Positions 18,356 to 64,000 of a stretch of 64,000 nt of DNA are shown in pieces (the first letter of the stretch is position 1; every line of letters begins with the position of its first letter). This DNA is from Strigamia acuminata. Its lineage: Eukaryota > Arthropoda > Chilopoda > Geophilomorpha > Linotaeniidae. A model generated the notes under the pieces. The model made no database searches and was not told the DNA's origin. It worked only from the letters and a program-made list of their open reading frames with translations. The stretch covers positions 6,473,875 to 6,537,874 of the forward strand of contig OX442315.1 in the NCBI GenBank assembly GCA_949358305.1, read 5' to 3'. The position numbers were made by a program, and so were the translations under genes.

Positions 18356-18526
18356 CTCCCGAAGGAGTGGGCCAACCCGTGGCAGGGGTGGAGCAAGCTC
18401 CGAGCACCCCACCTGGTTCCAAAAATCAGTTTAATATTCTGGGCCCTCAATGAGGACCGTATCAGATATTAAGCTGATAAGAACAGATACTACACTTTGA
18501 TCTTAGCCAAAAGGCCGAGAAGCGAT
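18356..18526 (-). ncRNA. U2: U2 spliceosomal snRNA
   Basis: Reading the minus strand from 18526: ATCGCTTCTCGGCCTTTTGG, then the conserved branch-site recognition region with GTGTAGTATCTGTTC, stem IIa/IIb sequences, and an Sm site in GATTTTTGG. The 3' stem-loops follow (GGAGCTTGCTCC, CTCCTTCGGGAG). Length 171 bases. U2 pairs with the intron branch point during splicing. The 5' end is exact by homology; the 3' end is estimated from the last hairpin. Confidence 0.95.
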
Positions 18527-42190: not shown

Positions 42191-43452
42191 TTAGATAGTT
42201 AGATAATTCAAATTGATTATGTTTGAAACCTCAACAAATTCATAGGGAATTACAATTTCCAGCTTGATTTTTCGCTCGCCAAAAATAAAACTAAAACACG
42301 ATTTACAAATAAAACTAACTCCCAGGACAACTCGGTTTTCGATTTGTTTCGGTACAATAATAAAGGGAACTTCAGTAACCTGGTCTGCCCATTTAACTTT
42401 GAACATTACTCGTCCAATTAGTTCGTAAGAATTACCACACATGTCTTGTCGGACGTTATCTTCCATTTTTAGAATGCTGTTTCGTGAGTAGCCGGTTTTT
42501 TCAAATAAATGTTCACCGATGACGCATTGGGCTGATCCCGTGGCTATTAAAGCAAGGTGAGTGAGATTTCCTATCTTCACTTTGATAAATGGACGGTCGT
42601 TCGTAAACTTTTTCGATGTTCCGCTTCCGGTAGCGCAGTTGTTCGCCATTTTGAGCTAAATAAGAGAATTTTTGAGTTATTAGTGAAATGGAAAGTGTGT
42701 ATTTGTTCGTAAACCTACCTGGAAATCAGAATCAGTGTAAGAATTGTATAAAGAATGTTTCTTAATTCCTTCTCGAGCCAATTGATCAGCTGCTTCGTTG
42801 CCCGCATTTCCCGAATGAGCCTTAACGTATTCCTAAAAAAAAAAATTATTATTATTATTTCCATATAAAATAAATTAAAACTTAATAAATCGATTTTACC
42901 CATTGCACATGAATTCCCTCTGATGCTTCAATGACGTCCTCAAAATCCGCTCGGTTATCAACCTCTTTACCGGAAACGGTTTTCCATCCATTTCGTCGCC
43001 ACTTTTTCATCCACTTAGTTACACCTAAATAAACTCAAGCCCTAATTAAAAACCTTCCGATAGTCGCAAATAAAATCGCGTACTGTCGATTAGAAACCGA
43101 CTATCCGTTGTAATCGTAACCGCTGCAAATCCTTCTCTCTCTGCCTGTCGAATGCCGCGAACCGCTGCCTGGATTTCCGCTCTGTTATTCGTTTGTCGCC
43201 CATGAAGCGCTTCGCTTACGTTTCTGTAAAAACATTTAATTAATTAAAATTAAATTAAAATAAAATTAAAATTTTTCTTTTCAAATACCTGTAATCATTT
43301 GGGCCCCAATACACTCCGATTCCACCTTTAGCGTCCTCTTTACCGTTATTCTCGCATGCACCGTCGGTATAAACCTTTGGAGGAGTTAAAATGTGTGTAA
43401 AAAGTGATAAGAAATACAAATCAAATCCTACGTGTGCGCTGTATTGGCTCAT
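42191..43452 (-). CDS. RNase H1 domain fused to retropepsin-like domain (unit 10)
   Basis: Exons 43452-43432, 43374-43289, 43223-43084, 43024-42900, 42832-42719, 42655-42191; 316 residues. RNase H residues are all present: VYTDGAC, NNRAEIQ, TTDSRF, KAHSGNAGNEAADQ. The 'handle' motif RRNGWK is of the cellular RNase H1 type, which degrades RNA in RNA-DNA hybrids. The last exon, joined in phase, is retropepsin-like: RPFIKVKIGNLTHLALIATG, VPFIIVPKQ, LGVSF. The catalytic D-T-G is A-T-G. Intron 1 is shortened and lacks the acceptor used by the other units; an internal AAAG acceptor at 43376-43375 keeps the frame, or the intron may be retained in frame. Confidence 0.75.
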
Positions 43453-44386
43453 TGTTCCTGAAATGTCTGAATGCTTGTACTGAGTTGGATCGTAAATGCG
43501 ACTGTAGTCAAATCTCTAGTGCTTTAAGTGTGGATATTGAATGCTTTCGGAATTCGGACCTCTAACAGAACACAGCCACTTGGAGTTACATGCATTTCAT
43601 TGGTCTACTGCAAATGGGCATTCTTGGAATGCAAGGTACTCCTAGTGACGTCACATTCTAGAAAATTCTGCCGTCTTCACCCGAAAATAACATCAATGGT
43701 GTTGTATTCGAGTTTTGTTGGAAACTGTCATTTTTGAAACATTGTTAAAAAATTGGAATGTAACACCACTTCAGCAATTTTTGGTGGTTTTGTTTCATTT
43801 TTGTTTTACATTTTACACTAATTTAATAATGGCTCTGCTTCAATTGTTAACCTTTTCTGCATAATATGTCATAATAACTGTAAGGTGCTCACAAAAATAT
43901 TATCACGGTGTTAAAATTTACCCAATTGTTGTGTTGGCAATGATAATGACGAGGAATTACAATGAAATCATGTTTATTATTAAATAATATTTCTATTTAC
44001 ACTGCTACTGAAATATTGAAATTTCTGGCATTTGTAGATTTTTTACTTTTTTTACTTGCACAAAATTATTATCACTCCTTGTGAAAATTGCAGATTTATA
44101 CATTTTCAACCACTTCGTTTTAGCGATCGCATCGTTTTAGCGAATTTTTTGGCGCTAAAACAAGGCATTCGCTAAAATGGATTCGCTAAAGTGAGATTCG
44201 CTAAAACAATGTATAGTTAGTGCAAACATTTCCAAACACTAATCAAAACAATTCAAATCAATACCATTTAGGCACATTAAACACAACTTCAAATTTAAAC
44301 AAACTCAGAATTAGAATTTAATAAAATAAAAAAATAAAAAAAAATTTTTACCAGATTAATTTAACAAATTGTTATTAATCGTCCGC
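43453..44386. other. Spacer with TTCGCTAAAA repeats and shared 3' flank
   Basis: 44110-44205 carries about six copies of TTCGCTAAA or TTTTAGCGA in both orientations. From 44205 the sequence matches the 3' flank of units 10 and 1. The 5' side (43453-43740) matches upstream regions of other units. Confidence 0.6.
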
Positions 44387-45631
44387 TTAGATAGTTAGAT
44401 AATTCAAATTGATTGTGTTTGAAACCTCAACAAATTCATAGGGAATTACAATTTCCACCTTGATTTTTCGCTCTTCAAAAGTGAAACTAAAACCCGATTT
44501 ACAAATGAAACTAACTCCTAGGACAAGGTTTTCGATTTGTTTCGGTACAATAATAAAGGGAACCTCAGTAACCTGGTTTGCCCATTTAACTTTGAACATT
44601 ACTTGTCCAATTGGTTCGTAAGAATTACCAACGAAGTCTTGTCGAACGTTATCTTCCATTTTTTGAATGCTGCTGCGTGGGTAGCCGGTTTTTTCAAATA
44701 AATGTTCCCCAATGACGCATCGGGCTGATCCTGTGGCTAGTAGAGCAGGGTGAGTGAGATTTCCTATCTCCACTTTGATAAATGGACGGTTGTTCGTAAA
44801 CTTTTTCGATGTTCCGCTTCCGGTAGCGCAGTTGTTCGCCATTTTGAGCTAAATATGAGAATTTTTGAGTTATTAGTGAGGTGGAAAGTGAATTTGTTCG
44901 TAAACCTACCTGTTTCTCGATTCCTTGTTTTGCCAATCGATCAGCTGCATCGCTGCCCACATTTCCCGAATGAGCCTTAACATATTTCTACAAAAATAAA
45001 TAAATAAATAAATAAATTTAGTACACTTTTAATAAAACCAAACAACTATAAAACAAATTAATTTACCATGAACACTCGAATTCCCACCGCTGCTGCATAG
45101 AAGTCCTCAAAATCCTTCCGGTTTTCTACCGGTTCACCATTCGCGTTTCTCCAGCCATTTCGTAGCCAATTCTCCTTCCAGTCAGTTACACCTAAATCAA
45201 ATGAAAATATAATTTAAAAAACGTCGGTAGTTGCAAATTAAAACCCGTACCATGGATTAAATAATGACTGTCCGTGAAAATGGTTAATTTGTCGAATTGT
45301 TGCTCCCGAGCTTGTTCGAGTGCCCGAACTGCGGCCCGAATCTCCGCTCGCTGGCTAGTTTGTCGTCCTTCGAGCGCTTCGCTTAGATTTCTGCAATAAA
45401 AAGATTTCATTACAATCAAACAAATTTTTTTAATTTTTTATTTCACCTCCTATCATGCTTGCCCCAAAAAACTCCAATTCCACCTCTAGCATTGGGTTTG
45501 CCGTTATTTACGCAAGCACCGTCGGTGTAAACCTTTGGCCGAGCATTCTTTAAGAGAAAACAAGTTAAAATGTATGTAAAAAGGGATAAGAAATAAAAAT
45601 CAAATCCTACTTGTGCGCTGTAGTGGCTCAT
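44387..45631 (-). CDS. RNase H1 domain fused to retropepsin-like domain (unit 9)
   Basis: Exons 45631-45611, 45547-45447, 45390-45251, 45191-45067, 44987-44910, 44848-44387; 308 residues, all introns GT-AG and in phase. Exon 1 encodes MSHYSAQ. The RNase H catalytic set is complete: VYTDGAC, SQRAEIR, FTDSHYL, KAHSGNVGSDAADR, with LRNGWRNANG as the substrate-handle segment. The last exon starts LKMANNCATGSGTSKK and encodes the retropepsin-like domain (LLATGSARCVIG, VPFIIVPKQ, LVLGVSF). The first-motif Asp is Ala. There is no mitochondrial signal and no hybrid-binding domain. This is the clearest example of the spliced fusion. Confidence 0.85.
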
Positions 45632-47340
45632 TGTTGTCTGAATGCTTGTATCCGTCTTGGATCGTGAAAGCGATTGCAGTCAAATCAAATCTCTAGTCTC
45701 TGGTGTCGAAACTCTGGCAAGAGTGGCCTTTCTCCCATTGGCCCAGCCTCATTACTCCTGTGTACTACCACCAGGAAAATTAGTTTTTTTAAGTTTAATA
45801 ATAATCAAATAAATTTAAATAAAACTACTTTTTATTTATTATTATTATTACTATTATTATTATTTATTATTTTTATTTGTATTGTATAATAAAATGTTGT
45901 TCCCATTCATAAAATAAAGTTTCATGCTGTTAGTAAAACGCCGAACGGCCGAAAGGCCCGGTATTGCGAAAACCTGATACCGCGCAACTATGGTGCGCCG
46001 AAGAACACGTCGCCGTAGAAATGTGTTGAGGAGCAGAAATTGGCATCTTGTTTAGGCTCACGGGTGAACAAAAGCGGCATCACCAAAGACATGGGCAATT
46101 CGGGCGTGGCAGTGACAAGGTGTGTAGTGTTTTAGTGTGAAATCAAGAGTGTGCCGAGTTTGATAATTCAAGCTTAGCACACTTCGGATCTGCGCGACAG
46201 ACCTGCGCAATTAGCTCGGTTTGGTGCAAGAACATAATTGTTGCACCAAAACGGTTAATTAGGGGCTCACCCCAGCCAATTTGGGGTGACTTGTGCCTAG
46301 GGAGTTTGCAACCCCTAGTCACATGACTCGGTTTGTCGTGTGCCAAACCAAGTGAATTAAGAAATAAAATATTAAATATTCTTAAGTGGTGAAAATTCTT
46401 TATTAGCAAATAAATCGAGATCACCACATGTTGAGTTGAGATTCCTTTCTGCTTTTACTACATTTAGTGAAATCAGTTCTCTTGTGTCTGTGTTGTTACA
46501 CGTTTCTTTGCGAACTTAAGGTAACGCCCAAGGAACTCCGCTCACCGCCGACCATCGTGAGTCCCGTCTATCGAGTTTACTCCGGAACTCACCATCGCCG
46601 CCCGAGCAAAACCACTTGCCGTGAACCATCGCCATCGTGGGGGTACCATTGAGCTTGCTCTGAGACTCATATCATCGCCATCGTACGTGCAAGTGTAATT
46701 TTTACCGGCGAATTCGCTTTGCCATTTTCCGCACACATTCCTTTTGTTTCCGCGACCATTGCAGCTCGCTTAATTTTTATTTCCTAAATTATACGGAGTA
46801 CTTCGTTAATTCTAATATTTATCCGTTTGTAAATTAAACGAATAAAATTCATTTGTCATTTTTATTATATTTAACCAACTTGTATTCATTTCAATATCCC
46901 TATAGACACATTTTTAGGCCAGTTGAGTTTAATTAGTCTGTACAATCATTGGACCAACCTGTCTTTGTGCAAAACTTTTTAAGAAGAGAGAATGAGCGCG
47001 TTGGTAAATTTGTCACAAAATATTTGGGAAACAGTTGGAAAATTGCAGATATGTTAAAAAATGTCGAAAAATTTGTAAATAATATTGCAAAATTGCAGAA
47101 TTGTTGCGAAATGTCGAGAAATTTGTAAAAATGTTGAGAAATGTCGAAATAATTAGTAAAAATGTAACGAAATGTCGACAAGTTTGAGAAAAGTATTGTT
47201 GTTTGAAACCCATCATAACGATGTAATTTTGCCACTAGATGGCGCGCGCAACCAACTGCCAATATACGCAGTGAACACAAACTTGGACAAAACCACTAGT
47301 GTCTGAATGTATCTGCAACAACTCGAAACCTTTTTATTTC
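45632..47340. other. Gene-free stretch with dispersed repeats
   Basis: 45880-46140 nearly duplicates 59680-59870 and includes a GC-rich, hairpin-prone block (CGAACGGCCGAAAGGCCCGG). 46150-46430 is one arm of the family at 52331-53322 (TTGCACCAAAACGGTTAATT). 46500-46930 matches 53720-54420 (ACCATCGCC-rich, then an AATAAA-bearing AT tail) and may be an LTR-like end. 47037-47190 is the RNase H 3' minisatellite. Confidence 0.6.
47037..47190. repeat. Minisatellite 3' of RNase H unit 8
   Basis: Copies of a roughly 30-base unit containing GAAAAATGTCGA..ATTTGTAAA. The same array type follows units 7, 6, 5 and 3. Confidence 0.8.
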
Positions 47341-48109
47341 TTAATCACAATCACAATCAGAATCAGAATCGCGGTATAAAGAATGTTTCGTAGTTCCTTC
47401 TCTTGCCAATCGATCAGCTGCATCGTTGCCCACATTTCCCGAATGAGCCACATATTTCTACAAAAATTAATTAAAAAAATTAATTCATTATACTTTTAAT
47501 AAAACCAAACAACTATAAAACAAATCGATTTACCATGCGCACGTCAATTCCCGCCGATGCTGCATTGAACTCCTTAAAATCCTCTCGGTTTGCTACCGGT
47601 TCACCCTTCGCGTTTCTCCACCCATTTCGTAACCAATTCTTCATCCAGTTAGTTACACCTAAATCAAGTCAAAATATAATTCAAAAACCGTCGGTAATTG
47701 CAAATTAAAACCCGTACTATCCATTAAATAACGACTGTCCGTGACAATCGTGATTTCGTCGAATCGTTGCTCCCGAGCTTGTTCGAGTGCATAAACTGCG
47801 GCCTGAATCTCCGCTCGTTGGTTTGTTTGTCGTCCTTCGATCCGTTTGCTTTCATTTCTGCAATAAAAAGATTTCATTATATAAATAAATAATTAATAAA
47901 TAAATACATTTTTGTTTCATTTACCTATCATCATTATGGCCCCAATACACTCCAATCCCAGCCTTAGCATTGTATTGTCCGTTATTTTTGCAAGCACCGT
48001 CTATGTAAACCTTTGGTCGAGCATTCTTATGATAAAAACACGTTAAAATGTGCGTAAAAAGTGATAAGAAATAAAAATCATATCTTACTTGCGCACTGTA
48101 CTGGCTCAT
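47341..48109 (-). CDS. RNase H1-type ribonuclease (unit 8)
   Basis: Exons 48109-48089, 48025-47925, 47857-47718, 47658-47534, 47457-47341; 167 residues. Exon 1 encodes MSQYSAQ. Catalytic residues are present: [44 protein letters not shown] is the conserved handle. One codon is missing just before the catalytic His (KYV-AHSG against KYVKAHSG elsewhere). The tail is short and Asp/Ser-rich (DSDSDCDCD) and no retropepsin domain follows; AATAAAAAG lies just past the stop. A cytoplasmic or nuclear hybrid-specific endoribonuclease is expected; no organelle signal is seen. Confidence 0.85.
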
Positions 48110-48973
48110 TGTTCCTGAAATGTCTGAATGCTTGTATCTGTGTTGGATCGTGAAAGCGACTGCAGTCAAATCTCTAGTGTTCTACAGTGTGGATTCTGAG
48201 TGTTACAGCTGAGGGTGAGGAGGAAGGTCAGACATACGTAAGAGCATGGACAGGAGGGGGAAAAGGGGGGCAACTGTGACCTGACTAGGAATGACCTCAT
48301 TATTGCCAGTCAACAGTCAATAACAAAGTTTAGAAACAGGGATTCAGACGTCAAATTGTTGATTGGTGGTGGAATTCTAGTAACTCTCCTGTCTTTTCCT
48401 CTCCATTTGATCTTGGACTAATAGTGTTTATTTAGAGTGTGTGATTTGGATTGTAAACACTTGAAATAGGTTAAGAAGATCGAAATTGCATTCAAGAAAT
48501 GAAAATTGGCTGCAATGCAATCGGAAAAGGAGAAAAATCGTGTTTGTAGATGAAAATTTGCGACTAATTTGAGAAAGAGTTGGAAAATTGCAGAGATGTT
48601 GAAAAATGTCGACAAATTTGTAGAAAATATGAAAAAATTGCGAAATTGTTGAAAAATGTCGACAAATTTGTAGAAAATATTAAAAAATTGCGAAATTGTT
48701 GAAAAATGGCGACAAATTTGTAAAAACTATTGAAAAATGTTGACAAATTTCTAAAAATTATTGAGAATTTCCCAGAATTGTTGAAAAATGTCGACAAATG
48801 TGTGAAAATGGTAAAAAATTGCGACTTATGACGTAATTTTGCCACTAGATGGCGGCGCAACCAACTCGTAGTAATCGCAGTCGAAGTGAATGAATCCAAT
48901 TCAAACTGAGCACAAACTTGAACAACCACTAGTGTCTGAATAAATCTCCAACAACTGGAAAACATTTTATTTC
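48110..48973. other. Spacer between units 8 and 7 with minisatellite (48597-48830)
   Basis: 48420-48600 is the shared ATTTAGAG...CAATCGGAAAAGG flank (uninterrupted by the MITE seen at 41447). 48597-48830 is the GAAAAATGTCGACAAATTTG minisatellite. 48835-48973 is the conserved 3' flank with GCCACTAGATGGCG. Confidence 0.7.
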
Positions 48974-49787
48974 TTAACACCAATGAAAGGTCAAATCATC
49001 ATCATCATCTGAATCAGGATAATACATTATGTCCCAGATTCCACGGGCTTGGGATGTAGAATGTTTCTTAATTCCTTCTCGAGCCAATCGATCAGCTGCA
49101 TCGTTGCCCACATTCCCCGAATGAGCCTTAATGTATTCCTAAAAAAAAATTATTATTATTACTTCCACACAAAATAAATTAAAAACTAAAAAAACCGATT
49201 TACCCATTGCACTTGAATTCCCTCCGATACTTCAATGATGTCCTCAAAATCCGCCCGGCACTCAACCTGTTTACCGGAAGCGGTTTTCCATCCATTTTGT
49301 CGCCATTTTTGCATCCACTTAGTTACACCTAAATACAGTCAAACCCTAATTAAAAACCATTCGATAGTCGCAAATTAAATCCCGTACTGTCGATTAGAAA
49401 ACGACTATCTGTTTTAATGAAAATCGCTGCGAATCCTTGGAAATTTGCCTGTCGAATTGCGTGAACCGCTGCCTGGATTTCCGCTCGGTTATTAGTTTGT
49501 CGTCCAGAGAGCGCTACGCTTGCATTTCTGCAATACCACGTGTAAAAATATTTAATTAAATTTATAAATAAAATTTTTTATTTTGAATCTTTTACCTCTT
49601 ATCATTTGGGCCCCAATACACTCCGATTCCACCTTTAGCGTTGTTTTTACCGTTATTCTTGCACGCACCGTCGGTATAAACCTCTGCACAAGGATTCTTC
49701 GAGATAAAAACAAATTAAAATACGTGACAAATGATAAAACAAAGAAAAATTATATCGTACTACTCTGGTAATTCTCATTTGGCTCAT
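48974..49787 (-). CDS. RNase H1-type ribonuclease (unit 7)
   Basis: Exons 49787-49761, 49696-49596, 49527-49388, 49328-49204, 49138-48974; 185 residues. The leader is 27 bases (MSQMRITRV) instead of 21, as in unit 5. The catalytic set is complete: [35 protein letters not shown]. The handle is RQNGWKTASG. The C-terminal tail is acidic (YYPDSDDDDD) and ends HWC, as in unit 3. The stop is followed by AATAAAATG. With units 4 and 5 it forms a subgroup (NPCAEVY in place of NARPKVY at the start of exon 2). Confidence 0.87.
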
Positions 49788-51419
49788 TGTTGATGTAATA
49801 TCTCAATGCTTGTATCTGTGTTTGATGGTGATTGCAACTACAGTCAAATCTCAAGTGTTTAGTGAAATCTGTAGTGTCCAGTGCTCTTGGACCTCTTGTA
49901 TACCACGTGATACCTAATCCGTTAATCTTTTGGCGGGATATGCGATTCATTGGTCTAGTGCAAATGGTCATTCTTGCAATTGGTCAGTTGCATTCAACCA
50001 CCTGTTAAGAAGCAGAAATGAATGCGGCTTGACATCTTGTTTAGACTGAGTTGTTTTTATTACTATGGGTGGTCAAAAGCGGCATGACCAAGAACATGGG
50101 CAAGCCATAAACAAGGGGAGAGCGCAAAGATTCAAAAGGCGACTACTGGAAAACCACTTGTGGTATCAATTGCAAAGATGGCGTGCAATAAACACAGCAA
50201 TCGGGTCCAAAGATTAAACGATTCCCGACAACTACAGCCACATTCTATACAATGCAATTTTGAAGGTTTGATGCTTCCGGTCACCCCAACTTTATTGTTT
50301 GTTGGAGGTGAAATATAAACTGTAGTCAAGTTTCAAAGGTTAAACAAGCAAGTGCTCTTTATTTATTTTACATGCATACTGTATTTATAGTGAGGTGAAA
50401 GGTTGTTGCACTGGAAGCTGATTGGCTGTGTGATGTTCCAATTTTAGAGATTCTCCTCCCACAGCTCATTGTGGTTCACTCAGTGTCCAAGTCAGCGTTA
50501 ATCCCTTTTAATTGTCCACGTCGGGGACACATTGGGGCCTCTGTAGATCCCTAGCTCCTACATTGTTGACACTAGAATTTTCTAGATTGTGACGTCACTT
50601 CAAATTATGTATTATCCTGTAACTAATATTCTTGTATTTGATTTTGTATTTCGATTCGTGTTGAAGGAAATAATAAAAAGTTCAAGCTTGAATTTGGTAT
50701 GATATTTTTTCTCTCGCGTGGCGACCATTTTGGAATATTATTTACGCTGACAAAAATTGGTGCATGAAAATTCGTCTTTGACGCTTGTGGTGACGCCAGT
50801 CTAGTCTAGTCTAGTCTAGGATTTACTAAATTGCCTCTTTTCTTCCAAGAATGCTGGCGGCAGGAGGATTCATATCCTGTTAAAGGATTAAAGCATTGTG
50901 TGCAGCTGTGCACTGTGCCATGCGATTGTAGTCTGGTAGGAAGTGTTTGGGAATATCCAGAATCCACACTGCACTGTGCACTCGCACTTACCATACAATA
51001 TAGGTACAATCATTGCACCAGCCTGTATTTGTGCAAAACGTTTTAAGAAGAAAAAATGAGCGCGTTGGTAAATAAATTTGTTACAAAATATTTGAGAAAC
51101 AGTTGAAAATTGCAGAGATGTTGAAAAATGTGGACAAATTTGTAAATAATGTTGAAAAATTGCAGAATTGTTGAAAAATGTGGACAAATTTGTAAATAAT
51201 GTTGAAAAAATGCAGAATTGTTGAAAAATGTGGACAAATTTGTAAATATGTTGAGAAATGTCGGCAAGTTGTCCGAAACCATGTAATTTTGCCACCAACT
51301 GCCATGATCGCAGTCGAAGTGAGGTAAGAATTCAATTCAAACTGAACACAAACTTGGACCAAACCACTGTCTGAATGGATCTCCAACAACTGGAAAACTT
51401 TTTATTTCTTAATCAGAAT
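49788..51419. other. Spacer with remnants of plus-strand RNase H flanks
   Basis: 50240-50330 (GATGCTTCCGGTCACCCCAAC) and 50570-50760 (TTGTATTTGATTTTGTATTTCGATTCG, then TTTTGGAATATTATTTACGC) match the 5' and 3' flanks of the plus-strand pseudogene at 60164, but the coding exons are gone. 50801-50819 has four GTCTA copies. 51080-51270 is the 3' minisatellite of unit 6. Confidence 0.65.
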
Positions 51420-52240
51420 CTATGGTGTTCCATAGAGGTTTATTCCCAATGACTGTAGAAATAGGCCTGAAGATGAGGTTGTAACGGGAGGACAAGTAGC
51501 ATGTTTCCTAATTCCTTGTTTAGCCAATCGATCAGCTGCATCACTGCCCACATTTCCCGAATGAGCCTTAACATATTCCTACAAAAATAAATAAACAAAT
51601 AAATACATTTAGTGCACTTTTAATAAAAGCAAACAAATTAATTTACCATGTACACTTGAATTCCCACCGATGCTTCATTGAAGTCTTCAAAATCCTGCCG
51701 GTTTTCTACCGGATCACCATTCGCGTTTCGCCAGCCATTTCGTAGCCAATTCTTCATCCACTTAGTTACACCTAAATCAAGTCAAAATATAATTCAAAAA
51801 CCGTGGGTAAATGCAAATTAAAACCCGTACTATCGATTAAATAACGACTGTCCGTGACAATCGTGATTTCGTCGAATCTTTGCTCCCGAGCTTGTTCGAG
51901 TGCCCGAACTGCGGCCTGAATCTCCGCTCGCTGGTTAGTTTGTTGTTCTTCTTCTCCTTTGAGCGCTTCGCTTACATTTCTGCAATAAAAAGTTTCATTA
52001 AATAAATAAATATATAAATAATAAATAAATAATTTTTTTATTACCGGTATTTACCTGTAATCATTGGGGCCCCAATACACTCCAATCCCACCCTTGGCAT
52101 TAGATTTGCCGTTATTTACGCAAGCACCGTCGGTGTAAACCTTTTGTCGAACATTCTTTAAGATAAAAACGAGTTAAAATGTGTGTAAAAAGTGATAAGA
52201 AATACAAATCAAATCCTACGTGTGCGCTGTATTGGCTCAT
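51420..52240 (-). CDS. RNase H1-type ribonuclease (unit 6)
   Basis: Exons 52240-52220, 52155-52055, 51979-51831, 51771-51647, 51578-51420; 184 residues. Catalytic residues complete: VYTDGAC, NQRAEIQ, VTDSRYL, KAHSGNVGSDAADR. Exon 3 has three extra codons in the loop (LKGEEEQQ in place of LEGRQ). The C-terminal tail (CPPVTTSSSG) is unique. A TATA-like ACTATAAA on the minus strand lies at 52316-52323, about 80 bases upstream of the ATG. All splice sites are canonical and nothing is broken. Confidence 0.87.
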
Positions 52241-52330
52241 TGTTGCAGAAATATCTGAACGCTTGTAAGTTATCTGTGTTGGATCGTGAAAGCGACTGCA
52301 GTCAAATCTCTAGTGTTTATAGTGTCTATA

Positions 52331-53322
52331 GTGTGACTTCAGATCTGCTCAGTAAATCTGCGCAGTTAGCTTGATTTAGTGCAACAATAGATTTGTTGCA
52401 CCAAAACGGTTAATTAACGGTTTCAGCGCTTCACCCCAGCCAAATTGGGGTGAAATGTGCTTGGGGAGTTTACTCTCTCTGATCACATGACTTGGTTTGG
52501 CACACGCCAAACCAAAATGAAAATAAAAAGTACACAATTTCTTAAGTGGTGATAAATTTATTTATTAAATAAATAAAAACACTTCAGGATCACCACAAGT
52601 TGAATGTCGGTTGTCGTTGTATTGTTGTTCCAAAGTGGAACGATGGGAAACGTTTCACTCCTTCGTTAGTGATAGAAAAATTAATAAATAATTAAATTAA
52701 AACACAACAAAAACATGGATAAGTGTGATTATGTTGGAAGATTGTTTGGTTTTTGTTTATGGACCACTTGGGTTATCAAAATTGTGCTTTTACTCACGTT
52801 TTTTATGGTGACAATGGCGGCGTGAGGAATGGATGCATATGTGATTGTAGTCTATTATAGTAGAGAGGGTTTTGGAATATCCAGAATACACACTAAGCTG
52901 CACTCGCCATACAACACAGATACAGTCCTTGGACGTTGTAAGAAAAAAGAATGAGGGCATGGCAAATTTTTACGAAATATTGAAATAATTTCGTTTATTT
53001 CTGCTTATTTTTAATTTTAGGTGTAGAATTGGAATTGGATATATTCATGTTGTCGAAGTTCCACACGTTGTGGTGACCCTGAAATGTTTTTTGTTTATTT
53101 AATAAATAAATTAGTCACTACCTAAGAAATTGTGTATTTTTATTTTGTTTTGGTTTGGCACACGCCAAACCAAGTCACGTGATTAGGGGGAGAAAAACTC
53201 CCTAAGCATATTGCACCCCGATTTGGCTGGGGTGAAGCCGTTAATTAACAGTTTTGGTGCAGCAAATCCTTTGTTGCACTAAAACAAGCTAATTGCGCAC
53301 TGCACTGATCCGAAGTGTGCCA
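52331..53322. repeat. Large foldback element with about 250-base arms
   Basis: 52331-52585 and 53068-53322 are inverted copies (GGTTTGGCACACGCCAAACC, itself palindromic, CACCCCAGCCAAATTGGGG, GCACCAAAACGGTTAATT). A single arm lies at 46150-46430. The loop of about 480 bases has no long frame. Confidence 0.75.
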
Positions 53323-55077
53323 GCCAGGCCTGCGGGTGCAGAATTGTCACACTTCGGCACCAAATTGAGCTCACGGCGCACAGTTAGTGCGCAGAACCGA
53401 AGTGTGCCTGGCACACTCCACCTTCTTTTCGGCCAGGGTATGGTGCAAAATAAACGGTTTTGGTGCAACAAATTCCTTTGTTGCACGAAAATTAGCTTTC
53501 TGCGCACATTTAGTGCGCAGGACCAGAGATTGCATAAAACCCCAAATTTTGGCGGTTTTAACTCAGTCTCAAAATCATCACAAACACAAGAACACAAGCA
53601 TCACTACTTTGAATAAGATCAGGTATTGATAGTGTTAACGTTTGTGACTTGAGATTCATTGCTGCTCTCACTGAAAAAAGCTCAGTGAGATTATAGCCAC
53701 TTTGCGCAAGCACGCATTTATACTAATCTCGGGTACACCCGAGAAAAACAGCTCACTGTTGGCCATCGCGTGCTCCGTTGACTTGTCCGGGCCCGCCATC
53801 GTCGTCACAGAAAACTGCTGTCCGTGAACCATCGCTATTGACTGTAAGCCACCGAGAGCTACTCCGGAGCTTACAGTCTACGCCATCGAACGAGCAGCGT
53901 AATTTTCACCCGCTCACTGCCGACCTTTGCAAGCACCGTTGACTTGTCCAGGCTTGCAATCGCCGCCACAGCAAAAACACTCGCCGTGAACCATCGCCAG
54001 TGTCTGCAAGCCACCGAGAGTTGCTCCGGAGCTTGCAGTCCTTGCCATCGCACGAACGAGTGCAATTTTTCCAGCGTCGCCATTTTGTGCGCAACAACAA
54101 GTCGTTGTTGTGCGCTCATTTGTTCATTTCTTGTGAGCATTATAGCTCACATTTTTCCTCTTTATTGTTTAGCATCTCTTCTTAACTTTAGTCCTAAATT
54201 TTAGTTATTAAATTAACGTATTAATTTATAAATTAAGCAGCTCAATTCTCATATTAATTTCGCATTAGTTTATCAGTGACTCTCGTATTGATTAAAATCA
54301 TTTCACAATTATTTATGCAATATTTGTAATTTAAACCGAATAAAGTTTATTTCTTGCCATTTTAATTCAACCAAACTTGCATTCATTTTTTAACATCTCT
54401 AAACACATTTTACAGGTCAATCGAATATAAGTCCTATCAACGGCATCTCAATTGTGATTAATTAATAAAAGTAAGTATTTGATTAAATAATTCTCGAGTG
54501 TTTGTATAACGCGCCTTTACAAGAGAAATAAATACAAAAGGAATGGAAAAATGCCTTTGTTGCTTTTAAAGAAAAAATTAATGTTGACAACTTAATGTAA
54601 TTTGTATGGTTTATTTAGAGTGTGTGATTTGGATTGTAAACACTTGAAATAGGTTAAGAAGAACGAAATTGGATTCAAGGAAGTGGTCTTATGAAAATTG
54701 GCTGCAATGCAATCGGAAAAGGAGAAAAATCGTGTTTGTAAATGAAAATTTGCGACTAATTTGAGAAAAAATTGGTAAATTGCAGAAATGTTGACAATTT
54801 TGTAGAAAATATTAAAAAATTGCGAAATGGGTGAAAAATGTCGACAAATTTGTAGAAAATATTAAAAAATTGCGAAATTGTTGAAAAATGTGGACAAATT
54901 TGTAGAAAATATTTAAAAAATGCGAAATTGTTGAAAAATGTCGACAAATTTATAAAAATGTTGACAAATTTGTCTGAACACAAACTTGGACAACAACTGT
55001 CTGATTATATCTCCAAGAACTAAAAAACTTCTTATTTCGTATTTCTTAACAACCAATGAAATGTAGTTTAATCAGAA
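53323..55077. other. Gene-free repeats: 170-base tandem, LTR-like tail, minisatellite
   Basis: 53323-53540 holds further diverged copies of the GTGCGCAG/GAAGTGTGCC arm sequence. 53755-53890 and 53930-54070 are tandem copies, about 173 bases apart, of a GC-rich unit with CCGTGAACCATCGC and CTCCGGAGCTT. 54180-54420 is an AT-rich tail with AATAAA shared with 46780-46930. 54480-54780 is the shared RNase H flank with the empty MITE site. 54775-54975 is the minisatellite of unit 5. Confidence 0.6.
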
Positions 55078-55933
55078 CTACATCAGAATCAGAATCAGAA
55101 CTACATCAGAATCAGAATCAGAATCAGAATCGGAATCTGCATCATACATTATGCTTGTTCGTCCAAGCATTATGTCACTGAGTCTACGGGCATTATATAA
55201 AGAATGTTTCTTGATTCCTTCTCTAGCCAATCGATCAGCTGCATCATTGCCCACATCTCCCGAATGAGCCTTAACTTTCTTCTAAAAAACAAATTATACT
55301 ATTTTCATATAAAATAAATTAAAACACTTTAAAAAAATCGATTTACCCATCGCACTTCAATTCCCACCGATGCTGCAATGATGTCCTCAAAATCCTCCCG
55401 GTTTTCAACCTCTTTACCAGAAGCGCCTTTCCATCCATTTTGTCGCCACCTTTCCATCCACACAGTTACACCTAAATCAAGTCAAACCCTAATTAAAAAC
55501 CATTGGATAGTCGCAAATTAAATCCCCCTACCTTTGAATAGCAAACGACTATCAGTTATGATCGTAACCGCTTCAAGTCCTTGGCGCCTTGCCTGTCGAA
55601 TTGCGCGAACCGCTGCCTGGATTTCCGCTCGGTTATTAGTTTGGCGTCCATCGAGCTCGTCGCCGACATTTCTGCAATAACATGTGTAAAAAACATTAAA
55701 TTAAATTAATAAATACAATTTTAAATTTTCTTTTCAAATACCTGCAATCGTTTGGGCCCCAATACACTCCGATTCCACCTTTAGCGTTGCGTTTACCGTT
55801 ATTCTCGCATGCACCGTCGGTGTAAACCTCTGCGCAAGGTTCCTTTGAGATAAAAACAAAGTACGATATGTGAAAACTGATAAAACAAAGAAAAATCATA
55901 TCGTACTGGTGTGCTAGATCTCTTTTCGCTCAT
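55078..55933 (-). CDS. RNase H1-type ribonuclease (unit 5)
   Basis: Exons 55933-55907, 55842-55742, 55671-55532, 55471-55347, 55281-55078; 198 residues from ATG 55933 (MSEKRSSTP). Catalytic set complete: [35 protein letters not shown]; handle [10 protein letters not shown]. The tail ends in a Ser-Asp dipeptide run from a GATTCT repeat. The frame upstream of this ATG is open without a stop back into the last exon of unit 4, so the same exon can also be read as the middle of a two-domain protein. The start chosen is the family-conserved one. Confidence 0.8.
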
Positions 55934-56716
55934 TGCAGTTAAATCTGTAGTGTCGGGATAAAACATTACGTCCCAGGGTCCACTGGGTTTGAGTGGAGAA
56001 TGTTTCTTAATTCCTTCTCTAGCCAATTCATCAGCTCCATTTCCCGAATGAGCCATAATATATTTCTAAGAAAAAAAAATAATTAGGTATAATTTTCACA
56101 TAAAATAACTTAACTTAAAAAATCGATTTACCCATTGCACTTGAATTCCCACCGATGCTGCAATGATGTCCTCAAAATCCGCCCGGCAATCAACCTGTTT
56201 ACCGGAAGCGGTTGTCCATCCATTTTGTCGCCATTTTTGCATCAATCTAGTTACACCTAAATACAGTCAAACCCTAATTAAAAACCATTCGATAGTCGCA
56301 AATTAAATCCCGTACTGTCGATTAGAAAAATACTATCTGTTTTAATGATAACCGTTGCGAATCCTTCGACATTTGCCTGTCGAATTGCGCGAACCGCTGC
56401 CTGGATTTCCGCTCGGTTATGAGTTTGTCGTCCAGAGAGCGCTTCGCTTACATTTCTGCAATAACATGTGTAAAAAAATTTATTTAAATTAATAAATAAA
56501 ATGTAAAATTGTCGAATCTTTTACCTGGGATCATTTGGGCCCCAATACACTCCGATTCCAAATTTAGCGTTGTCTGTCCAGTTATTCTCGCCCGCACCGT
56601 CGGTATAAACCTCTGCACAACGATTCTTCGAGATAAAAACAAATTAAAATACGTGACAAATGATAAAACAAAGAAAAATTATTTCCTACTGCTGTGCTCA
56701 ATCTGGATTGGCTCTT
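55907..56716 (-). pseudogene. RNase H unit 4, start codon lost, frame continuous into unit 5
   Basis: Exons 56716-56690, 56625-56525, 56455-56316, 56256-56132, 56065-55907. The leader begins AAG where ATG is expected, with an in-frame stop shortly upstream. The domain keeps VYTDGAG, HNRAEIQ and KTDSIF. In the last motif five residues are missing (AHSGN-GAD), which shortens the loop between the catalytic His and Asp. The last exon has no stop and runs in frame through the 5' region of unit 5 (PSGPWDVMFYPDTT) into its leader and donor site. Without another start it is probably not translated, but with an alternative first exon it would give a double-domain protein. Confidence 0.65.
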
Positions 56717-57822
56717 TGTGTATGTAATATCTCAATACTTGTATCTGATTGAAGTGAAATCTGGAGTGTCCAGTGCTCTCGGACCTCTTGCACGCCACGT
56801 GATACATAATCTGTTAATCCTTTGGCGGGATATACATTTCATTGGCCTATTGCAAATAGTCATTCTTGCAATTCGTCAGTTGAATGCAACCACTGGAAAA
56901 CCACTTGTGGGATCAATTGCAAAGATGGAATCCGAGTGCAATAAACACAGCAATCCGGTAAAAAGATTAAACGATTCCGGACAACTAACTAACTAATATT
57001 CTTGTATTTGATTTTGTATTTCGATTCGTGTTGATTCACTTTAAAATAAGGAAATAATAAAAAGTACAAGCTTGAATTTGGTATGATATTTTTTCTCTCG
57101 CGTGGCGACCATTTTGGAATATTATTTGCGCTGACAAAAATTGGTGCATCAAAATTCGTCCTTGACCCTTGTGGTGACGCCAGTCTAGTCTAGTCTAGAA
57201 TTTACTAAATTGCCTCTTTTCTTCCAAGAATGCTGGCGGCAGGAGGATTCGTATCCTGTTAAAGGATTAAAGCATTGTGTGCACTGTGCATGCCATGCGA
57301 TTGTAGTCTGGTAGAAATAGAATCCACACTGCACTCGCACTTGTCATACAATATAGGTACAATCATTGCACCTGCCTGTATTTGTGCACAGTGCTGGACT
57401 GGCCCGTGGCCGCTGTGGCCCATCGTGGCTTGCTGTGGCCCGTCCCGACTTGATTAATTGTGGCCCGAACATCCAGATTTCCCGGCACTAAATTTGTTCC
57501 CAGTCCAGTCCTGTTTGTGCAAAACGTTTTAAGAAGAAAAAATGAGCGCGTTGGTAAATAAATTTGTTACAAAATATTTGAGAAACAGTTGGAAAATTGC
57601 AGAATTGTTGAAAAATGTGGACAAATTTGTAAAAATGTTGAGAAATGTCGGCAAGTTGTCCGGAACCAGTCATAACCATGTAATTTTGCCACTAGATGGC
57701 GCGCGCAACCAACTGCCATGACCGCAGTCGAAATGAGTGAAGAATTCAATTCAAACTGAACACAAACTTGGACAAAACCACTGTCTGAATGGATCTCCAA
57801 CAACTGGAAAACTTTTTATTTC
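56717..57822. other. Spacer with plus-strand remnant and shared 3' flank
   Basis: 57000-57180 repeats the plus-strand 3' flank also at 50630 and 60650. 57183-57198 has GTCTA repeats. 57389-57513 is a MITE. 57590-57650 is a short version of the GAAAAATGTGGACAAATTTG minisatellite, and 57680-57822 the conserved 3' flank of unit 3. Confidence 0.65.
57389..57513. mobile_element. hAT-type MITE with 8-base duplication and preserved empty site
   Basis: CAGTGCTGGACTGG and CCAGTCCAGTCCTG ends flanked by TTTGTGCA at 57381-57388 and 57514-57521. The paralogous copy at 51028-51035 has one uninterrupted TTTGTGCA. Confidence 0.9.
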
Positions 57823-59384
57823 TTAACACCAATGAACGGTAGTTAAACCATCATCATCTGAATTAAATCCACAAAACAGATAATCACGGAATCCACAGGG
57901 TTTACGGGCATCAGGATGTTTCTTAATTCCTTCTTCAGCCAAATGATCAGCTGCATCGTTGCCCACATCTCCAGAATGAGCCTTAACATATTCCTAAAAA
58001 AGTTAATAAAAAAATTAATTTATTACACTTTTAGTAAAACAAAACAATTATAAAACAAATCGATTTACCATGTGCACTCGAATTCCCACCGATGCTGCAT
58101 TGAAGTCCTCAAAATCCTGCCGGTGTCCTACCTTTTGACCACTCTCGACTCTCCAGCCATTTCGTAGCCAATTTTCCATCCAGACAGTTATACCTAATTC
58201 AAGTCAAAATATAATTAAAAAACGGTCCGTAATCGAAAATTAAATCCTGTACTGTTGAATAAATAACGACTGTCCGTTACGATCGTTATTTCGTCGAATC
58301 GTTGAACCCGAGCCTGTTCAATTGCCCGAAGTGCGGCCCGAATCTCCGCTCGGTTCTTATTTTGTTCTCCTTCAAGCACTTCGCTTACATTTCTGCAATA
58401 AAAAGATTTCATTATCGTAAATAAATGAAATTATTTTTGTTTTCATTTACCTATTATCATTGGGGCCCCAATATACTCCGATTCCACACTTAGATTCAGT
58501 GTGCCATTTTCCCTCATGATTGCTAGCACCGACGGTGTAAACCTTTGGACGAGCATTCTTTAAGATAAAAACAAGTTAAAATGTGTGCAAAAAGTGATAA
58601 GAAATAAAAATTATATCCTACTTGTGCGCTGTATCGACTCAAGTCCGAATGTTTCTCGATTCCTTGTCTTGCCAATAGATCAGCTGCATCGTTGCCCTCA
58701 TCTCCCGAATGAGCCTCAACATGTTCCTACAAAAATAAATAAATAAATAAATTAATTAATTAATTAATTTATTATACTTTTAATAAAACAAAACAATTAT
58801 AAAACAAATCGATTTACCATGAACACTCGAATTCCCACCTCTGCTGCATAGAAGTCCTCAAAATCTTTCCGGTTTTCTACCGGTTCACCATTCGCGTTTA
58901 TCCAGCCATTTCGTAGCCAAATCGGCTTCCAGTCAGTTACACCTAAATCAAGTGAAAATATAATTCAAAAACCGTCGGTAGTTGCAAATTAAAACCGGTA
59001 CCATGGATTAAATAATGACTGTCCGTGAAAATGGTTAATTCGACGAATTGTTGCTCCCGAGCTTGTTCGAGTGCCCGAACTGCGGCACGAATCTCCGCTC
59101 GCTGGCTAGTTTGTCGTCCTTCGAGCGGTTCGCTTAGATTTCTGTAATAAAAAGATTTCATTACAAGCAAACAAATTTGTTTTTAATTTTTTATTTTACC
59201 TTTTATCATTCTTGCCCCAATAAACTCCAATTCCACCTCTAGCATTGGGTTTGCCGTTATTTTCGCACGCACCGTCGGTGTAAACCTTTGGCCGAGCATT
59301 CTTTAAGAGAAAACAAGTTCAAATGTGTGTAAAAAGTGATAAGAAATACAAATCATATCCTACTTGTGCGCTGTAGTGGCTCAT
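57823..59384 (-). CDS. Double RNase H protein: intact domain joined to a domain lacking the first Asp (units 2+3)
   Basis: Exons 59384-59364, 59300-59200, 59141-59002, 58942-58818, 58726-58622, 58557-58451, 58392-58253, 58193-58069, 57993-57823; 344 residues. Domain 1 has VYTDGAC, SQRAEIR, FTDSHYL, EAHSGDEGNDAADL, all catalytic residues present. Its last exon lacks a stop; instead, after EKHSDL, it contains the next unit's leader (SRYSAQ, with the ATG changed) and donor, so splicing continues in frame into domain 2. Domain 2 has YTVGAS where TDGAC is expected (first catalytic Asp lost, Cys lost) plus a two-codon insertion, but keeps RAEI, TDSRYL and [12 protein letters not shown]. It ends DDDG...HWC. 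The arrangement suggests a paired active and inactive RNase H. Confidence 0.75.
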
Positions 59385-59596
59385 TGTTGTCTGAATGCTT
59401 GTATCCGTGTTGGATCGTGATGAAAGCGACTGCAGTCAAATCAAATCTCTAGTCTCTGGTGTCGAAACTCTGGCGAGAGTGGCCTTTCTCCCATTGGCCT
59501 AGCCTCATTGCTCCTGTGTACTACCACCAGGAAAAGTAGTTTGTTTATGTTCATTTGATTATTAATAATAATCAAATAAATTTAAAAAAAAATACT

Positions 59597-59663
<67 letters not shown>

Positions 59664-60163
59664 TATTATTTTTATTTGTATTGTATAATAAAATGTTGTT
59701 CCCATTCATAAAATAAAGTTTCATGCTGTTAGTAAAACGCCGAACGGCCGAAAGGCCCGGTATTGCGAAAACCTGATACCGCGCAACTATGGTGCGCCGT
59801 AGAACACGTCGCCGTAGAAATGTGTTGAGGAGCAGAAATAGGCATCTTGTTTAGGCTCACAGAACTGAATTGTTTTTATTACTACGGGTGAACAAAAGCG
59901 GCATCACCAAAGACATGGGCAAGCCAAAAACGAGGGGAGAGCACAAATATTCAAAAGAAGCAAATTAAGACGACCACTTGAATACCACCCACGTGTGGGA
60001 TCAATTGCAAAGATGGCGGCGTGCAATAAACACAGCAATCCGGTCAATCCCGACAATTACAGCCACATTCTCCACAATGCACTTTTGAAGGTTTGATGCT
60101 TCCGGTCACCCCAACTCTATTGTCGACACTAGAATTTTATTTTATGTATCTTTATTATTGCAG
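59385..60163. other. Spacer with ATT microsatellite and duplicated block
   Basis: 59600-59672 is a long (ATT)n run. 59680-59870 nearly duplicates 45880-46060 (CGAACGGCCGAAAGGCCCGG). 60060-60120 carries the GATGCTTCCGGTCACCCCAAC plus-strand flank. Confidence 0.7.
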
Positions 60164-60640
60164 AAACGTTAGCGAAGCGCTCGGTGGACGACAGACGAAC
60201 AATCGGGCCGAAATACAGGCAGCGGTTTGCGCCATTGAGCAAGCTCAAGACCAAGGATTAGACGAAATTACCATTTATACCGATATTCGTTTGTTATTCA
60301 AAGGTAGGGGGATTTAATTTGCGATTATCGTTTGGTTTTTAATTAGATTTCGACTCGATTTAGGTGTAACCGTGTGGATGGATTTTTGGCGAGAAAATGG
60401 CTGGCGAAAGATTTCTGGCGAGCGGGTTGAAAACCGAGAGGATTTTAAGGACATCATTGCAGTATCGGAGGGAATCAGAGTCAATTGGGTAAATATCGGT
60501 GTTTTATTTTATTGAAAGAAAGCGTGATAAATGTTGATCTTTTTTTCTATTTAGAAACGTGTTAGGGCTCATTGGGGAATTAAGGGCAACGCGAAGCAGC
60601 TGATCGATTGGCGAGAAAAGGATGTGAGAAACATTAGTCT
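60164..60640 (+). pseudogene. Plus-strand RNase H pseudogene (first exons missing, frameshift at catalytic end)
   Basis: Exon-3-like 60164-60303 (NNRAEIQ, YTDIRLL), exon-4-like 60364-60488 (RENGWRK, ENREDF) and exon-5-like from 60555 are present with intact splice signals. The exon with the first catalytic Asp is absent; the preceding DNA goes directly into the upstream flank. In the last exon AHWGIKGN is followed by a frameshift: the bases for AADRLARKG are present but two bases out of frame, with the spacing around the catalytic Asp altered. It therefore cannot encode an active enzyme. Confidence 0.85.
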
Positions 60641-61326
60641 TGATTTCTGTATTTGATTTTGTATTTTGATTCGTGTTGATTCACTTTAAAATTAAGAAAT
60701 AATAAAAAGTACAAGTTTGAAATTTGTGTGATGCTTTTTCTCTCGTATGGCGACCATTTTGGAATATTATTTACGCTGACAAACATTGGCGTGTGTTAGC
60801 ACTAATGACAAGATATTTCCAAAATAAATTCAAATATTGCACTCTGAAATTGCATGTCAGTGAATTCCACAAATTTATACGGTAATAACCACTGAAATAA
60901 TATTAAAGATTTGATAGATGTAAACTTTTAAATGTTAAATTTTACCATTTAGACTCGTTTAAATAATATAAACAACTTTTAATGAATTATTATTCTCGAT
61001 GTTATAACTATATATTCTTTACTCAAAGATTTATCATATTTAAGCCATAATAATTCTAGTAAAATTTAATATTAATCTGTAATTACCTTGGCATTAAATC
61101 TAACATTATAATCCAGCATTGATCGTATATATTCAATTGTAAAACAATTTTTATTATAACATGAAACTTTGTATAGTTAATGCAAACATTTCCAACACTA
61201 ATCGAAACAATTCAAATCAATATCATTTAGGCACATTAAACACAACTTCAAATTTGAACAAACTCAGAATTAGTATTTAATAAAAAAAAAATAAAAATAA
61301 AAAAAAAAGTTTTTCACCAGATTAAT
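60641..61326. other. Spacer: plus-strand 3' flank then retropepsin-unit 3' flank
   Basis: 60645-60780 matches 50630-50760 and 57000-57130. 61000-61326 matches 41843-42190 (CATTGATCGTATATATTC and the following 300 bases), the 3' flank peculiar to RNase H-retropepsin genes. No gene. Confidence 0.65.
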
Positions 61327-62553
61327 TTAACAAATTGTTATTAATCGTCCGCTTAGATAGTTAAATAATTCAAATTGGTTACGTTTGAAACCTACAAATT
61401 CATACGGAATTACAATGCCCAGTTCATCATGGATCAATTTCCGCCTGCCACAATAGATACTCAAACCCGAAATACGAAGGAAACTATGTCCCAGGACAAG
61501 GTCTTCAATTTCTTTCGGTACAACAATAAAGGGAACTTCAGTAACCTGGTTTGCCCATTCAACTTTGAACATTACTTGTCCAATTGGTTCGTAAGAATTA
61601 CCAACGATGTCTTGTCGAACGTTATCTTCCATTTTTTGAATGCTGTTGCGTGGGTAGCCGGTTTTTTCAAATAAATGTTCCCCAATGACGCATCCGGCTG
61701 ATCCTGTGGCTATTAGAGCAAGGTGAGTGAGATTTCCTATCTCCACTTTGATAAATGGACGGTCGTTCGTAAACTTTTTCGATGTTCCGCTTCCGGTAGC
61801 GCAGTTGTTCGCCCAGATTTCACGGGATGAAGAATGTTTCTTAATTCCTTCTCGAGCCAATCGATCAGCTGCATCGTTGCCCACATTTCCCGAATGAGCC
61901 TTAACATAGACCTAAAAAAATTAATTAATAAATGAATATATTATACTTTTAATAAAACAAATTAATTTACCATGTACACTTGAATTCCCATCGATACTGC
62001 ATTGAAGTCCTCAAAATCCTGCCGGTTTTCAACCGGTTCACCATTCCAGTTTCTCCAGCCATTTCGTAGCCAAGTCTTCATCCACTCAGTTACACCTAAA
62101 CCAGGTCAAAATATAATTAAAAAACCGTCGGTTATTGCAAATTAAAACCCGTACCATAGTATAAATAATGACTGTCCGTGACAATCGTTAATTCGTCGAA
62201 TCGTTGCTGCTGAGCTTGTACGAGTGCCCGAACTGCGGCCTGAATCTCCGCTCGCTGGTTAGTTTGTCGTCCTTCGAGCGCTTCGCTTACATTTCTGCAA
62301 TAAAAAGATTTCATTAAATAAATAAATAAATAAAAAATAAATAAATAAATATTTTTTTTTCATTTACCTATAATCATTGGGGCCCCAATACACTCCAATC
62401 CCACCTTTGGCATTAGGTTTGCCGTTATTTTCGCAAGCACCGTCGGTGTAAACCTTTGGTCGAGCATTCTTTAAGATAAAAACGAGTTAAAATGTGTGTA
62501 AAAAGTGATAAGAAATACAAATCAAATCCTACGTGTGCGCTGTATTGGCTCAT
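61327..62553 (-). CDS. RNase H1 domain fused directly to retropepsin-like domain (unit 1)
   Basis: Exons 62553-62533, 62468-62368, 62294-62155, 62095-61971, 61911-61327; 323 residues. RNase H catalytic residues: [35 protein letters not shown]. Here the RNase H end and the retropepsin-like domain are in one exon without an intron (REIWANNCATGSG), unlike units 9 and 10, so the join arose or was reshaped separately. The retropepsin-like part has RPFIKVEIGN, LIATGSAGCVIG (Ala for catalytic Asp), VPFIVVPKE and LVLGHSFLRISG, the second hydrophobic-hydrophobic-Gly motif. It is the most complete retropepsin-like domain of the three. Confidence 0.87.
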
Positions 62554-63718: not shown

Positions 63719-64000
63719 ATGAGTTGCCCAGCGGTTTACACGGACGGGGCTTGCAAAAATAACGGTCAACACAATGCTAAAGGAGGAATCGGAGTGTATT
63801 GGGGCCTGCATGATAGAAGGTAAAACAAAATATTTTACTTTGATTTATTTATTTATTTATTTATTTATTCTTGCAGAAATTTAAGCGAGGCGCTACAAGG
63901 GCGCCAGACGAATAATCGGGCGGAGATACAAGCCGCTGTCCGGGCGATTGGTCAAGGAAAAAGCGAAGGGTTTCGTCAAATGACGATTTTGTCAGATAGC
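63719..64000 (+). CDS. RNase H1-type ribonuclease, plus strand, runs off right edge
   Basis: Exon 63719-63819 starts at ATG in MSCPAVYTDGACKNNG; a 57-base intron with GTAAAA and TTGCAG borders follows. The next exon starts at 63877 ([20 protein letters not shown]) and is open to the window end at TILSDS. The first Asp, the Glu and the Asp of the third motif are present. Unlike the minus-strand units it has no separate leader exon: the ATG lies in the DGAC exon itself. Introns fall at the same position and phase as in the minus-strand units. Confidence 0.85.

Follow-up and report, generated by a model that had tools for sequence, protein, structure and literature searches.

Probable chimeric genes joining an RNase H1-type domain to an inactive retropepsin-like domain in a tandem array of Strigamia acuminata

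How a retropepsin-like domain devoid of its catalytic aspartate could come to stand behind an RNase H1-type enzyme, and what it might do there, is the question raised by three genes, designated A, B and C, in a 64,000-nucleotide stretch of the Strigamia acuminata genome (C3:6473875-6537874, hereafter the window). The analysis was performed on this one genome (searched assembly of 237.5 Mb) and on sequence alone. A, B and C are very probably chimeric host genes, as regards both the apparently new RNase H1–retropepsin architecture and its origin. The whole explanation, namely, chimeric host genes whose captured, inactive retropepsin-like tail is used as a dimer or tether module, is in our judgment evenly balanced between acceptance and doubt. 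The three genes and their retropepsin-like parts are located in the window as follows.

42191-43452, minus strand: copy A, RNase H1-type domain, intron 42656-42718 and retropepsin-like domain, 316 amino acids (aa); exons 43432-43452, 43289-43374, 43084-43223, 42900-43024, 42719-42832 and 42191-42655.
44387-45631, minus strand: copy B, architecture as in A, 303 aa, with intron 44849-44909 between the halves; exons 45611-45631, 45447-45532, 45251-45390, 45067-45191, 44910-44987 and 44387-44848.
61327-62553, minus strand: copy C, architecture as in A and B, 318 aa; exons 62533-62553, 62368-62453, 62155-62294, 61971-62095 and 61327-61911.
42191-42655, minus strand: retropepsin-like exon of A, whose start, CTCAAAATG, is read as a former 5' untranslated region (5'UTR) plus start codon; triad A-T-G.
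44387-44848, minus strand: retropepsin-like exon of B, start CTCAAAATG; triad A-T-G.
61327-61812, minus strand: retropepsin-like part of C, directly after KKHSSSREIW; triad A-T-G.

All 14 introns of the three genes have GT...AG ends, and zero internal stops were found in any spliced frame. In copy C, the last RNase H exon and the retropepsin-like domain share one exon (61327-61911), and KKHSSSREIW runs straight into ANNCATG, with no intron and no ATG at this point. The initial annotation had described three loci encoding a complete RNase H1 catalytic domain of cellular type, with introns, followed by a retropepsin-like domain; the spliced ends of A, B and C match these loci, the joined frames are intact, the spliced exons show the order of the two domains in all three genes, and the exon structure agrees with the cellular type. 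Coding indels away from the joints were all multiples of three except for a 2-base event near the end of copy C, which alters its last residues. The probability that a 303-aa frame stays free of stops, simulated with neutral substitutions only (1000 runs each), was 0.034 for 10% divergence and 0.002 for 19%. The simulation and the indel pattern support the view that the frames are translated, which would not extend to a role for the tail. The order found in retroelement Pol, with the protease before the reverse transcriptase and RNase H in one polyprotein frame, is not that of A, B and C, where RNase H precedes the protease domain, and RVT_1 was not found in any of the three by Pfam. Exon shuffling and domesticated retropepsins are already known; a described RNase H1–retropepsin protein was not found in the open-access literature among the matches listed, and the pairing itself would be new, a point that was weakly tested.

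The RNase H half is complete. Pfam RNase_H (PF00075) covers positions 4-140 of 141 in the three genes (E = 2.8e-37 in A, 1.8e-34 in B and 1e-35 in C), and the motifs TDGAC, RAEI, TDS and AAD, which we take to be the acidic catalytic residues of RNase H, are found in each of them, so that both the fold and the acidic residues appear to be present. An RVT_3 match, presumably to an RNase H-type family, overlaps the RNase H domain and is above its cut-off in A and B. The genes resemble eukaryotic RNase H1 (class I cellular) in the catalytic domain, the intron–exon structure and the acidic motifs, whereas they differ from it in the added C-terminal retropepsin-like domain and in what precedes the catalytic part. 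An N-terminal hybrid-binding domain is usual in eukaryotic RNase H1; a search of the genome for this domain (PF01693, 6 candidates scored) gave one match, at a separate RNase H1 gene (C3:249522), and none in the array to which A, B and C belong.

The triad of the first protease motif reads A-T-G in three of the three fusions, with GCC as its first codon, as the initial annotation had it; its T and G are retained in all of them, and the D-[T/S]-G of active retropepsins is found in none. Asp-to-Ala replacement inactivates aspartic proteases, according to PMC11402058. The second motif, said earlier to be kept as LVLG, is so in B and C, but A has VVLG. Single tails remained under the Pfam curated cut-offs (best 25.4 vs. 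28.2 bits, gag-asp_proteas), and in a search of solved structures with the tail of B alone, the match to DDI1 was no better than E = 0.36. A seven-member family profile matched yeast DDI1 (E = 2e-5) and ASPRV1 (E = 0.006), and after enlargement with retrotransposon proteases and the standalone gene L044, described below, the E-value for DDI1 was 1.3e-7. Comparison of the family profile with five protease pieces of long repeated frames (hhalign) gave a probability of 99.6%, E = 7.6e-25 and 131 aligned columns. Homology of the tail to retropepsins is secure at the level of profiles and extends over the whole domain. The fusions share whole-domain homology and the second motif with the retropepsins of retrotransposons (family A2), from which they differ in having Ala for the catalytic Asp, no polyprotein and the protease domain after RNase H. 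ASPRV1 and DDI1, the best cellular relatives of solved structure by profile, have a single retropepsin-like domain in a host gene, as here; however, ASPRV1 carries D-S-G-A (PMC11402058) and yeast DDI1 carries D-T-G (by alignment), whereas the family analyzed here has lost the triad. Neither the profile of the dead family (A4) nor that of the retrotransposon proteases (A2) found a relative in scans of viral contigs.

The same genome contains dispersed standalone genes that encode the retropepsin-like domain alone, namely, L012, L013, L014, the truncated pair L042/L043, L044 and the L015 repeat family, the latter with at least 29 hits of identical score. They were detected by a search with the tail of B in which 150 of 1804 candidates were scored, and the list of the family is therefore a lower bound. 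Their identity to the tail of B was 49% (L012), 56% (L013) and 54% (L014), and their triads are A-V-G in L012, V-T-G in L013 and L014, A-T-Q in L042/L043, I-E-W in L015 and D-P-W in L044, so that five of the six lineages begin the triad with A, V or I. As single sequences in Pfam, L013 exceeds the RVP cut-off, and L015 and L044 gave no hit. Among the candidates scored, long open frames with a homologous protease are abundant, many of them of 1402 and 1394 aa. Both of the protease pieces tested, out of five, exceed the RVP cut-off, and RVT_1 follows the protease (E = 6.2e-34) in the one long frame read further; the long repeated frames are therefore retrotransposon Pol. The five resident protease copies read, from two families, have D-T-G (three) or D-S-G (two). 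The long polyprotein frames are further from the tail of B than the standalone genes are (32-36% in the genome search), and the five resident proteases show 28-30% identity to it.

The standalone genes also share with A and B an intron just upstream of the domain (L012, L013, L014, L042/L043 and L015). They stand apart from RNase H: the 9.9-kb stretches L039-L054 contain L012-L014, L042-L044 and ten L015-type copies, and none of these stretches gave an RNase H match. The joint introns of A and B were each aligned to the 5' introns of the standalone genes (five lineages, L042 representing L042/L043), with 500 shuffles per pair and the splice-site ends excluded. In nine of the ten comparisons, 0 of 500 shuffles reached the observed score; the weakest was B–L015 (8 of 500), and for a control intron of B the count was 339-379 of 500. 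In L012, L013, L014 and L042/L043, an ATG lies 6 or 7 bases past the acceptor, and L012 and L013 have a MANNxATGSG-like start; in A and B, the bases before the old ATG translate as LK, followed by M from the ATG itself (LKM). From the homology of the introns and the retained ATG, it was concluded that the joint intron of A and B once lay in a 5'UTR and that the tail was copied at the DNA level from an intron-bearing gene. Because standalone genes with degenerate triads encode the same domain, the tail was most likely dead before its capture rather than through a loss of Asp within the fusion genes. In this respect the earlier description of an inactivated protease was correct as to the A-T-G motif, yet it overlooked the source of the domain, a standalone family in which the loss of Asp most likely preceded the fusion. 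As for L015, a near-identical repeat (L015-L038, L045-L054) carries the dead gene (I-E-W) and the homologous 5' intron; it extends past the 9.9-kb stretches (L047, L049), and the other open reading frames in L047 do not exceed 209 aa.

The fusions belong to an array of twelve RNase H1-type copies at 42-64 kb of the window, ten of them on the minus strand; A, B and C are the three that run into the retropepsin-like domain. The other copies are as follows.

47341-48010, minus strand: n47, unfused RNase H, exons 2-5, with its own tail ending in KHSLYRDSDSDCDCD and a normal stop.
48974-49681, minus strand: n49, unfused RNase H, exons 2-5, with the smallest synonymous divergence (dS) to the RNase H of A, 0.18.
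51420-52140, minus strand: n51, unfused RNase H, exons 2-5, with the smallest dS to the RNase H of C, 0.10.
55078-56610, minus strand: n56 and n55, RNase H copies; n56 is without ATG at the usual start, and the spliced frame is open across both.
57823-59384, minus strand: n58-n57, in-frame RNase H chimera, 334 aa spliced; n58 is nearest to the RNase H of B, dS 0.04.
60165-60631, plus strand: degenerate RNase H copy with a stop in the last exon.
63734-64000, plus strand: RNase H copy leaving the window.

The unfused n47, n49 and n51 have tails and stops of their own. In the n57 domain of the chimera, VYTVGAS stands for VYTDGAC, the first catalytic Asp being replaced by Val, and no ATG of its own is present at the usual place; n58-n57 parallels the fusions in that an intact RNase H domain is followed in frame by a dead one. 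A 50-base AT-rich tandem repeat lies between RNase H copies (47035-47136, 48553-48738, 51102-51259 and 54786-54970).

After the common GI(K/E)K, 13 residues precede the donor in A and one in B, and in C eight residues precede ANNCATG; the joints of the three genes therefore differ. RNase H trees and the ratios of nonsynonymous to synonymous substitutions (dN/dS, omega, with bootstrap confidence intervals, CI) were based on ten of the twelve array copies, the plus-strand copies being left out and exon 1 being excluded from the trees; the n47 row in these ratios, the tree and the approximately unbiased (AU) tests carries one odd codon (three extra bases). In the RNase H tree, A grouped with n49, n56 and n55 (100/100) and B with n58 (100/100), while C fell within the wider group of B with its placement unresolved. 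A clade of A, B and C was rejected by the AU test (p = 1.3e-4), as was that of B and C (p = 1.7e-6). In the tail tree, from which L042/L043 and L044 were left out, as they were from the tail dN/dS, the three tails clustered as one group (97/98). Between A and B, the RNase H part had a dS of 0.74 and the tail one of 0.115; the bootstrap CI for this difference was 0.37-1.01. Different histories of the RNase H domain and the tail are shown at the level of these alignments. Identity changes in mosaic fashion along the genes: A, B and C resemble one another at the 5' end, in the last RNase H exon and in the tail, and the middle of A is unlike; in part of the 3' flank, A and C are 97-98% identical, and B differs. 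The RNase H tree rejects a single fusion that was then simply duplicated. Since this tree does not allow A, B and C as a clade, either the array would have captured the tail at least twice, or a single fusion would have been spread within it by gene conversion.

The explanation that we prefer is that an array of tandem RNase H1-type genes devoid of a hybrid-binding domain gained the body of a standalone gene by DNA-level recombination. The acquired body would encode a domesticated retropepsin-like domain without the catalytic Asp, and the tail would be used for its fold, in dimerisation or as a protein tether. Paired tails would bring together two RNase H domains, resulting in higher avidity for RNA:DNA hybrids, and the tail would stand in for the missing hybrid-binding domain. 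That the tail acts in this way is a tentative proposal, falling a little short of an even chance; the simplest role to assign to it would be dimerisation, by which the RNase H domain is doubled. Retropepsins act as dimers, the C-terminal strands making the dimer interface, and the Ser after the Asp forms the "fireman's grip" of the dimer, as stated in PMC11402058; this grip residue is Ser in the retropepsins covered there, whereas it is Thr in A, B and C.

Selection on the standalone genes is consistent with a retained fold. Pairs among four standalone lineages had omega of 0.20-0.28 in the tail core, from which all omega values of the tail were taken, with bootstrap upper bounds below 1 (L014–L015 was saturated in dS and left out), and comparisons of standalone with fusion tails gave 0.22-0.38, all upper bounds again below 1. 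According to these ratios, the standalone copies are under purifying selection. Host-type structure and constraint outside the element, as expected of a domesticated gene derived from a transposable element, appear in the standalone lineages, L015 itself being a high-copy repeat. It should be noted that several observations weigh against the proposed use of the tail. Omega of the fusion tail core was 0.48 for A–B (CI 0.19-1.28), 0.70 for A–C (0.30-2.08) and 1.28 for B–C (0.48-5.62), and that of the RNase H part of B–C was 1.25 (0.65-2.85); omega in the fusions is indistinguishable from 1. Part of the constraint on the standalone genes may predate the loss of Asp, and L044 still has D in its triad. 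The 2-base indel changed the C-terminus of copy C, where the dimer strands would lie, AlphaFold2 models of the three window tails had a mean predicted local distance difference test score of 34 (3 sequences), uninformative on the fold, and the whole rests on a single genome. The initial suggestion that the protease fold was kept as a binding or dimerisation module fits the standalone constraint and the retained T-G; for the fusions, with omega indistinguishable from 1, it may or may not hold.

A close rival is that the fusions are a neutral by-product of a fast birth-and-death array, in-frame chimeras produced by unequal crossing-over and gene conversion and perhaps transcribed, with no selected function of the tail; we regard this as possible and give it substantial, though minority, weight. 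Omega near or above 1 in the recent RNase H pairs B–n58 (1.43), C–n51 (0.89) and n49–n56 (1.92) agrees with it and may reflect relaxed or diversifying selection, with lower values for A–n49 (0.66) and n51–n47 (0.68). The mosaic identity along A, B and C, the further in-frame chimera n58-n57 and the degenerate copies (n56 without ATG and the plus-strand copy with a stop) are likewise what such turnover would leave. However, it has to accommodate three chimeras with two kinds of joint, all with complete frames and splice sites, and the low simulated chance of a stop-free frame together with indels in threes everywhere but at the end of C, evidence that speaks less for the tail.

In another explanation, the dead retropepsin monomer pairs with the protease of intact resident retrotransposons, stops the polyprotein from maturing and recruits an RNase H to reverse-transcription complexes. 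The host lineage would then have made a restriction factor from retroelement parts, one that poisons maturation and cuts the replication hybrid, which we consider improbable. Long frames with a homologous protease are abundant, the five copies read have D-T-G or D-S-G, and retropepsins work as dimers (PMC11402058). Nevertheless, the identity of the tail of B to the resident proteases is low, as given above, and the fast evolution of several RNase H pairs of the array, in keeping with such a role, is equally compatible with neutrality. That A and B are each two genes, the RNase H ending alone and the tail being translated from its own ATG, seems very improbable. The standalone ATG and 5'UTR intron are indeed retained in both, yet RNase H coding sequence replaces the standalone first exon with no stop before the splice donor, and copy C joins its halves in a single exon with no ATG at the joint.

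Several further features were recorded. Five RNase H matches at C1:51.34-51.58 Mb (L002-L006) cover positions 5-139 of 141 in one stretch each; four are free of stops and L006 has one stop, and they are possibly retroelement RNase H. The window contains a U2 spliceosomal RNA (18362-18526, minus strand; full-length Rfam match) and a partial 18S rRNA match (29995-30412, plus strand; model positions 621-1113 of 1831). TTAGG repeats, which we take to be of the arthropod telomere type, were found at two of the four contig ends read, and no exact match to the nematode SL1 spliced leader was found; the two results point to an arthropod rather than a nematode genome.

The fusions show exon shuffling that can be traced: a nucleic-acid enzyme gained a transposon domain that was domesticated and enzymatically dead, and the old UTR intron and start codon can still be read. 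With them one can test whether a protease fold free of catalysis may take the place of a nucleic-acid-binding domain or work against retroelements. Even with an idle tail, the locus would remain a clear example of tandem arrays generating in-frame chimeras.

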